A stretch of 64,000 bases of DNA from contig JAIGNY010002064.1 of assembly GCA_020152595.1 (NCBI GenBank), forward strand, positions 1-64,000. Direction: 5' to 3'. This document shows, piece after piece, positions 12,901-15,900 of the stretch. The stretch comes from Chiridota heheva (taxonomy: Eukaryota; Echinodermata; Holothuroidea; Apodida; Chiridotidae). The notes under the pieces are model-generated. The model saw only the letters and a list, made by a program, of their open reading frames with translations. It had not been told where the DNA came from and did no database searches. Each line of letters starts with the position of its first letter. Position 1 is the first letter of the stretch. The translations under genes were made by a program, and so were the position numbers.

Positions 12901-15900
12901 GAGTTTCCAGAGGAGGAGGTGGCATGTGAGGTTATCCCATTTAACCCTTACTCTACCACGCGGCGATAGTATTGCCGTTTTCAAACCAACTTTTTCTAAA
13001 AATAAAATCGGGACTTTACCACAGTCCTATAAGATTATTCTTGGTATCATCTTAAAGTAATCGGATATTCTTTCACAAAATGAAACTTTTTCATGGGGGT
13101 CATATTACATAATTTTTAGAAAAAGTACATCAAAAAAGGGGAAAACTCAATAATTGCTAAAAGATTTACAATTTTTTTATTTTTCTCTTTAACATCTTAC
13201 GATAATTTCAAGATCACATTTTTGCTTCAAAATCAAACACGCAAGTTCTAAGACATGATAGTATTAGTTTCTGGTATAATTTTTATAATCCCTACGTCCA
13301 ATCTTTTGTTCTCGAGAAATTTCTTCAAAATATCATGAATTTCTGCCATTTTTGACCCGTTTTTTTCAAAAAATCGTGTAACCCAAACCGTACATCACGC
13401 ATGCTTTGTTGAACCGCCGTTCGAAAGCGCTTGAAATTTCCTTTCATTTGATATATAAATAAAGGCATACCCCCCTCTATTTAGAACCTATCCTATAAGA
13501 ATAAAATTACACCTCTCCAATTTGAACGACTATGTGGTGCAGAGGAAATGTACGCAAATAGCGTGCGAGCTCTCCGGATTCGAGTCTCGCCGTGACCCCT
13601 GCATAATTATTTTTCTGCTGCAGCTTTCAGGGGACGTTGACTTTTATCATTTTTGATGTGTTTTCATCTTTCTTTTCTTTCTAAAAATCATAGATTAGTA
13701 TCATTGGAAAGGAAATTTCAAAAAGAATCTAAATATGTAACACAAATCTCTGTTTTCAATACTGACAAGAAGTTATACTTCTGCAAAGATTGACCATTTG
13801 TTGAGCAAATTTAGCCAAAAATTGCTTAAATTGCATAGTTTTGTCCAATATTTCCTAAATTGGTTTTAATTACTCAAAAGATAAATATCTTAGCATCTAT
13901 TCCAACCAAACTTGTAACGAAAGAAAATGAAAGGAAAGTTGTCAAAAATGCATATGAAAAAAAAGTTACGAAAATTAGGGTCTCTATTTTTAAAGCCCTG
14001 GTAGAGTAAGGGTTAAGATTGAGTAATGAAGTAAGAACAGCCTTTGAGTTGGAAAAAATGGCAAAGTGGCTCTGAGGAGAGTACTCAATAAAGTTGAGGG
14101 CGAGGAGAATGGCCTTAGCCTTGGCTGAAAAGTTGGATGAGTAGTCAGGAAGTCTGCTACTGAGGGTGATGTCTTGGATGATGGCAGCAGCAGCTGTCTT
14201 GTTGCCTTCCTTGGAGCCATCAGTATAGATGGAGGTGTAATTTGAGAGTTGGTCTTTGATTTGGTTGTGGAGATTGATAAAGAGGTTAGGGTGGGTTTGA
14301 GTTTTATGATAAGTGGAGAGGTCTAGGTGGACAGAAGGGAGGGGGATGTCCCAAGGTGGAAAAGTGGGCCAGGAGTAGGTGCCGAGAGTGGCGGGGTTGA
14401 TGCCGAGATGGAATAGGTCTGATTTAATGCGTAAGCTGAAGGGAGGGGATAGCGTTTTAGTCCTATCAAAGAGGAAGGAGAAATTGGGGTACCTAATGAG
14501 GTTGTAAACAGGGTTCTGGGTGTTGGTGAGGACTCTACATCTAAGTAGAAAGGGGGGTTCGTTGGCTTCAACATGAAGGCTGGTGATTGGGGAGGTCCTG
14601 TAGGCTCCTAGACAAAGCCTGAGGGCTTCATTTTGGATGGTGTTGATGTGGTTGAGGTATGAATTGTGAGCGACACAGTAGACAATATTGCCATAGTCGA
14701 GCTTGGCACGAATGGCGAGCCTGAAAATTTTGAGGAGAGCATAGTGGTCCGCTCCCCAAGTGGTGTTGGAGAGGAGTCAGAGGATGTTGAGGGAGCTGTT
14801 GCATTTTAGTTTCAGGTTGGTGATGTGTTGCTTGTAGGTGAGCTTGGGGTCAAGAGTTAGACCCAGGAACTTTATGTGTTCAACTTTAGGGATGCGATTC
14901 CCATTGAGCATAAAAATCGGGTTGAGGTTGTTGAAATGACAAAAGTGCATGCAGACTGTCTTGTCTTTGGAGAATTTAAAACCGTTATTGTTGCTCCAGA
15001 CTTGCAGCTGGTTGAGGCTGATTTAGAGCCTATTTTCGACAATAGGAAAGCTAGGGGAGGAGTAGAAGATGGTGAAGTCATCCACGTAGAGGGTACGTTT
15101 GATGCTGGGGCCAAGGTTATTCGCGATGTCAATAATGCTCAGGTTGAAGAGAGTGGGAGAGAGGGTGCTTCCTTGGGGGACGCCCTCTTCTTGGAGGTAC
15201 GGGTTGCAAAGGGTGTGGCCAATACGAACTTGGAACTGCCTGAGTGAGAGGAAGTTTTGAATAAAGATGGGGAGGTGCACTCTGAGGCCAATGGTGTGAA
15301 GTTTGCGGGTAACGCTGTATTTCCAAGTAGTGTCGAAAGCTTTCTCAAGGTCACAAAATATGGCAATGAGGTGTTCCTTTTTTGCAAAGGATTCCCGGAT
15401 AGCAGTGTCGAGCGTAGTTAACTGGTCAAGGGTATTGCGACGTTTTGGGAAGTCGCTTTGGTGAGGGGAGAGGATTCTGTTGATCTCTAGGAACCAGTTT
15501 AGTCTCTGATTAATGATTTTTTCCATAATTTTACAGAGACAGCAAGTGAGGGCTATGGGTCGGTAGCTGGAGGGGTCGGTAGCTGGAGGGGTCGGTACCG
15601 TCCTTCCCCAGTTTAAGAATGGGGATGACAATAGCTGTCCTCCAAATGAGGGGAAAGGAGTGTGAGGACCAAATGTGGTTGAAGATGGTGAGTAGGGCCT
15701 CGATGGGAAGGTGTTTCAGGAACTGGTAGGGGATGTTATCTGGGCCATTGGAGGTGCAGCCAGCGCCGTTGATGGCTTGGTTTAATTCAGAAAGGGTGAG
15801 AGGGGTGTTGTAGCTTTCGGAGTTGTCGAGGGAAAAGTGATTCTCCGGGCTTCATCGCAAGCTTTTTTGGTTTTGAAAACATTAAAGTAGTTGGTCGAGG

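Follow-up and report, generated by a model that had tools for sequence, protein, structure and literature searches.

The piggyBac elements IFP2 and piggyBat are autonomous transposons that duplicate a TTAA target site and have short terminal inverted repeats (TIRs) starting with CCC. mPok, a short non-autonomous form, is reportedly a piggyBac MITE of Pokey in Daphnia (PMC4912750, PMC3849761). Sola3 elements also use TTAA, and tRNA-derived SINEs have boxes A and B, for which the consensus sequences are TRGYNNAGYGG and GGTTCGANTCC. In the excerpt of PMC10813416, CCCTT is named as the start motif that is best conserved among piggyBac ends. Kolobok elements likewise target TTAA, and their ends are defined in the excerpt of PMC6004289 as starting with RR, those of T2-MITEs with AGGRR.

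Here we describe P1, an element in a 64,000-nucleotide stretch of Chiridota heheva DNA (contig JAIGNY010002064.1; "the window" below). The P1 family resembles IFP2 and piggyBat in its TTAA duplication and in its short TIRs, which start with CCC (CCCTTACTCTACCA), and its transposase-bearing partner shares the DDE_Tnp_1_7 domain with them; unlike these two autonomous elements, P1 lacks a transposase. Both mPok and P1 are short and non-autonomous, each with an autonomous piggyBac as its relative; a tRNA-like module, which the P1 family has, is not mentioned in the abstract openings on mPok. The TTAA target is common to P1 and Kolobok or T2-MITEs, but the latter have RR or AGGRR termini according to the same excerpt (PMC6004289), whereas P1 starts with CC. 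As in tRNA-derived SINEs there are boxes A and B, in P1 about 42 nt apart; unlike those, P1 is about 1 kb long and bounded by TIRs and TTAA, with the module in its middle. P1 stands for a new family within a well-known kind of element: as a mobile element, everything about it is ordinary for piggyBac. Less ordinary are two features of the family, its tRNA-like module and the arrays of 109-bp relatives that are bounded by TTAA. Judging from sequence comparison, we consider it very probable (roughly 0.93) that P1 is a non-autonomous piggyBac element with a tRNA-derived module in its middle, mobilised by a family with the same ends into a resident LINE (Table 1).

Table 1. Positions in the window of P1, its parts, its host LINE and a diverged relative
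Feature	Position	Strand	Basis
Host LINE copy, interrupted by P1	12165..15970	-	extent of its match to the second copy
TTAA target site duplication, left copy	12941..12944	.	sequence
P1, non-autonomous piggyBac-type element, 1068 bp	12945..14012	+	ends, TTAA, empty site, genome family
Left TIR, 14 bp, CCCTTACTCTACCA	12945..12958	+	
Left part, 59% homologous to left end of C3606:135344-141578	12945..13396	+	
Middle part, 273 bp, no alignment to the C3606 element above shuffles	13397..13669	+	
tRNA-like module, decayed, arms in cloverleaf-like order	13528..13596	+	
Box A-like TGGTGCAGAGG, 1 mismatch to TRGYNNAGYGG	13535..13545	+	
Box B-like GATTCGAGTCT, 2 mismatches to GGTTCGANTCC	13577..13587	+	
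TTTTT run, possible pol III terminator	13610..13614	+	
Right part, 60% homologous to right end of C3606:135344-141578	13670..14012	+	
Right TIR, 14 bp	13999..14012	-	
TTAA target site duplication, right copy	14013..14016	.	sequence
Second copy of the same LINE, site empty	28810..31448	-	bounds are those of the match
Empty-site TTAA (one copy)	29589..29592	.	
E2, diverged P1 relative (68% across the right part)	53388..54143	+	

Ends, family and transposase-bearing partner

The GC content of P1 is 32.6%. Its ends are complementary at 14 of 14 positions (0 mismatches) and directly adjoined by TTAA on either side. When all TTAA pairs 100-5000 bp apart in the window were scanned for 14-bp inverted ends, seven pairs with at most two mismatches were obtained, two of them exact (P1 and 48054-48630); the chance level from 20 order-2 Markov sequences was 0.05 pairs per window at this threshold and zero exact pairs. 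The 14-bp inverted ends between two TTAA copies named in a preliminary description of this DNA are thereby confirmed; its boundaries, 12941..14016, hold with the TTAA copies counted in, with the correction that the 14 bp themselves exclude TTAA. Its assignment of P1 as piggyBac-like and non-autonomous is supported by the ends, the TTAA and a partner with the same ends (see below), and the longest stop-to-stop frame wholly within P1 comprises 65 aa. That description covers neither the tRNA-like module nor E2 nor the 109-bp relatives with their arrays.

Other repeats were seen in the window as well. The exact pair at 48054-48630 belongs to a fold-back TTAA element with the ends AGGATTAGTTTAGT, its AGG end resembling Kolobok/T2-MITE; stretches similar to it (~79-91% over aligned pieces) lie at 57843-58405, 62824-63415 and 19649-20159. 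At 9225-9763, the TTAA-flanked pair AGGTATATGGACAG / AGGCCTATGGACAG (2 mismatches) may represent a Kolobok-type MITE. A 30-bp tandem repeat of ~61 copies, open in several frames, occupies 60260-62095.

In the 1.10-Gb genome, the end together with its TTAA (18-mer TTAACCCTTACTCTACCA) occurs exactly at 6281 + 6371 = 12,652 places, compared with 0 for the reversed-pattern control. Four further copies of about 1 kb, selected among the first 100 places listed for paired exact ends ~1 kb apart (L045, L046, L047 and L048), are 93.0, 86.8, 82.6 and 88.4% identical to P1 and, like P1, have TTAA on both sides. Another (L009, 82.7%) has one decayed end and TTAA on one side, and L054 contains a partial copy. 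An internal marker directly after the tRNA-like module was found at 795 + 810 = 1,605 places (at most one mismatch; control 0), which corresponds to ~1,600 marked copies of the 1-kb family. We also looked for the family in viral contigs: the 18-mer end was matched exactly once at each of four loci there, which we took as chance. No second end was present at three mismatches in three of the four (L003 has one 3-mismatch site), and two conserved internal patterns gave zero matches in these contigs.

At least 117 matches to the piggyBac transposase domain PF13843 (DDE_Tnp_1_7) are present in the genome, the best with E 2.3e-87, compared with 0 in each of 14 control genomes; none of the matches listed lies on the window's contig. 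P1-like ends were seen within the ~1.5-kb flanks of 0 of the 30 transposase loci fetched out of these 117. One of the 30 (L017) matches at 84% over 375 columns L053:6432-8548, a 2117-bp element with family ends, the left one being one base off. Extending the flanks of L017, the only locus extended, led to a 6235-bp piggyBac element, C3606:135344-141578, with TTAA on both sides and exact CCCTTACTCTACCA ends. It contains an unbroken 471-aa open frame (one frame checked) which holds PF13843, and its gene is presumably whole. The frame matches piggyBat (9c0f, 7.1e-55) and piggyBac (6x67, 2.2e-39), and its DE, MDN and DYN...GVD..DQ blocks, which we take to hold the catalytic aspartates, align to piggyBat. 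The preliminary description had proposed searching the genome for the 14-bp ends, for inverted pairs of them and for a piggyBac transposase element sharing them; all three are present, the last in one case, a putatively autonomous relative that shares the ends and has a DDD transposase. Such an element makes it scarcely tenable that P1 is instead a MITE of Kolobok or Sola3, in spite of the TTAA target shared with these superfamilies: with a piggyBac transposase domain between the same ends, and with the RR and AGGRR starts of Kolobok and T2-MITE (PMC6004289, in the excerpt) set against the CC of P1, this possibility is already largely refuted.

Positions 1-452 of P1 align to the left end of the C3606 element (59%) and positions 726-1068 to its right end (60%), scores that none of 200 shuffles reached with the terminal 48 and 20 bp excluded. 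For the middle of P1 against the whole C3606 element, 194 of 200 shuffles score as high. With an end homology of only ~60%, P1 did not arise by a recent deletion in this element. Rather, it would descend from an older member of the C3606 lineage, having kept ~450 bp on the left and 340 bp on the right and lost the transposase interior, with a middle of ~273 bp that would include the tRNA-derived module.

Some further features of the transposase loci may be mentioned. Five 256-bp tandem repeats lie inside the C3606 element (C3606:136413-137709, element 1070-2366), their unit showing a 3'-splice-like TTTTGCAG before GTACAACAAGAGGTA. Other piggyBac transposase loci (L023, L022) have TTAA-flanked ends that start CCCTCTATTGACCA and CCCTTTCATGCATA.

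E2 aligns to P1 with a score of 247, compared with a maximum of 60 in 200 shuffles. Its box A, TAGTGCAGTGG at 53706, is perfect and its place corresponds to that in P1; box B is poor (4 mismatches). The middle parts of P1 and E2 yield no alignment above shuffles, and the P1 ends were not found on E2, nor was a left end (best candidate 5 mismatches of 14). That E2 represents a second family with its own ends was considered and rejected: the supposed end TTAACTTCTAGAGTTCCA occurs once genome-wide, at E2 (control 1). An eight-unit, 21-bp minisatellite (54148-54316) starts where the E2/P1 homology stops, and its units resemble the end of E2.

Insertion into a resident LINE

Joined with one TTAA, the flanks of P1 match 29292-29897 at 574 of 611 positions (94%), without a gap at the junction. 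A comparison of 10001-18000 with 26501-36000 showed the two LINE copies to be alike only within the bounds of Table 1, and no wider duplication was seen around them in these ranges. The interrupted copy has RVT_1 in frame 15023-15715 and, matching below threshold, RNase_H in frame 12406-13026. Beside the second copy and on its strand there is a frame with endonuclease domains (32049-32603), probably a part of that copy.

The empty site had been placed at 29585-29598 in the preliminary description. The single TTAA does lie inside this stretch, but the site is part of a paralogous LINE copy and is not an allele of the P1 locus. To call the insertion "proved" on the basis of one such copy was too strong, because piggyBac excision restores TTAA exactly; genome-wide counts make up for this. 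The uninterrupted LINE junction is present at 3237 + 3280 = 6,517 places (at most two mismatches; control 0), whereas the junction of the LINE with the left end of the P1 family occurs exactly at three places in one orientation (the window, C1763:219531 and C1836:336102), or at 37 with at most two mismatches (one orientation; inserts looked at in three). The three inserts examined at this same LINE TTAA differ. Besides P1, there is an array of three 109-bp relatives and two spacers (L107), 88% identical to another array (L049), after whose last end the LINE sequence picks up directly, and a left end of the L053/C3606 kind (L108), 78% identical to L053 over 1266 columns. From 6,517 empty junctions and differing inserts it follows that the LINE came first and that the site was struck separately by different family members, in support of the earlier proposal that P1 moved after LINE insertion. 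With 460 TTAA per 64 kb, ~6,300 elements and 6,517 LINE sites in one orientation, 2-3 chance insertions are expected at this site by a rough estimate, so a hot spot need not be invoked.

The alternative, that the LINE lineage already contained P1 and carried it along, the empty copies being precise excisions, could draw on the exact restoration of TTAA by piggyBac excision and on the two further LINE copies with family members at the same TTAA. We regard it as most improbable in view of the 6,517 uninterrupted versus three exact interrupted junctions in one orientation (37 at up to two mismatches), of three examined inserts that are of different kinds, as separate insertions would give, and of the 2-3 hits roughly estimated to arise by chance anyway. 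According to our preferred reading, the transposase of the same-ends family, represented by C3606:135344-141578, would have cut P1 out and pasted it into a TTAA of a LINE copy already resident, and it is this transposase family that presumably moved P1.

A tRNA-like module in the middle of P1

The box A-like and box B-like stretches of P1 lie 42 nt apart and have three mismatches in total. Three such 3-mismatch box pairs occur in the window, compared with 0.75 expected at up to three, and P1 alone is a weak case. Another box A/B pair in the window, at 8797 (TAGCTCATTGG ... GGTATGATTCC, 41 nt apart), has no match to P1. Among the copies, a pair of boxes A and B with at most four mismatches, as in a tRNA-derived SINE at tRNA spacing, is present in 41 of 46 sampled modules versus 0.5% of shuffles, the modules sharing descent and thus not counting as independent events. 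The other five score 5, 5, 6, 6 and 9 mismatches, and the spacing is 42 in 33 of the 46. The sample consists of P1, L009, L045-L048 and 40 more (L067-L106), the latter fetched by the exact downstream marker as the next 40 of the first 100 places listed, with the boxes ignored.

Conservation is 0.88 in box A, 0.90 in box B, 0.85 between them and 0.90 after box B. At the places of the D- and anticodon arms the stems pair in most copies, the T stem pairs at three of five and the acceptor at five of seven positions (no shuffle control for any of these stems); the anticodon-like stem has one base in common with the D stem. The T run is at the same place in six of six aligned ~1-kb copies. Box B is perfect in L045 and L047, and together with its flank at 68 places genome-wide (reversed control 0), which against 1,605 marker places indicates that most modules are decayed. 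Part of the module is missing from several copies, for example L069 and L098. In L096, an apparent end of a second tRNA-like module is seen directly upstream of the first.

A real tRNA was rejected for this module, as Rfam calls none in P1, E2 and 20 further sources and ARAGORN none in 45 loci; at a relaxed threshold ARAGORN picks the module's spot in P1, scoring below three other P1 picks. No comparable box pair is present in the C3606 element (best 4 mismatches, minus strand), and in two of its kin, L053:6432-8548 and L108, a good box A (TGGTGCAGTGG) is seen but no box B. These comparisons point to a module that is tRNA-derived, by now mostly decayed, and perhaps once a pol III promoter, one which may have taken the place of the transposase. 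No published report of a tRNA-like module in a piggyBac MITE was found among titles and abstract openings.

How such a module came about can be read in several ways. Boxes A and B could arise by chance in an A+T-rich element, and the modest match in P1 (three mismatches, three places in the window versus 0.75 expected), the silence of Rfam and ARAGORN and the middle parts of P1 and E2, unalignable above shuffles, would all fit. We nevertheless consider chance quite unlikely, given that 41 of the 46 modules have at most four mismatches versus 0.5% of shuffles, 40 of the 46 having been fetched by the downstream marker and not by the boxes, that box B including its flank is perfect at 68 places (control 0), and that stems pair at cloverleaf places in most copies (no shuffle control). 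A better candidate, possible though short of probable, is a SINE which inserted in one ancestor of the 1-kb family and has been carried since as a passenger without a role; this would account for tRNA-like sequence with boxes A and B and for its absence from the C3606 element, whereas neither a SINE tail nor a flanking direct repeat is visible by eye in an alignment of six copies. More far-reaching, and in our opinion unlikely, is the idea that a TFIIIC-binding pol III unit of tRNA origin took over the place of the transposase gene and aids the element, with the short relatives, each of whose repeat units has ends, spreading as TTAA-bounded satellite blocks. The unit would then be, or have been, transcribed into an RNA of ~90 nt and might aid the element, e.g. 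by holding copies in open chromatin.

Short relatives, arrays and implications

The 109-bp relatives have ~37 bp of the left end of P1 in common. They can stand alone, as one does in L006 inside a relative of the 48054 element, that relative continuing on either side. In five loci (L010, L049, L050, L051 and L057) they form tandem units of ~229-245 bp. The L049 array (706-1549) consists of four elements and three spacers with TTAA at its outer edges. In L107:251-851 (reverse strand) the array's outer edges are element ends with TTAA, seated in the known LINE target. Because one block is TTAA-bounded and another sits in a known target, our data suggest that whole arrays of 109-bp relatives move as blocks; they could also have grown from a two-element block after insertion.

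Taken as a family, the same 14-bp ends are found in one genome at several ranks: on a transposase-bearing copy, on passengers of 2.1 kb and 1.07 kb and on a 109-bp miniature. The insertion of P1, set against 6,517 uninterrupted sister junctions, provides a clean relative date. The several ranks in one genome raise the questions why a tRNA-like module is still visible in 41 of 46 copies sampled from a passenger lineage, and whether arrays travel as blocks when all their units have transposon ends.
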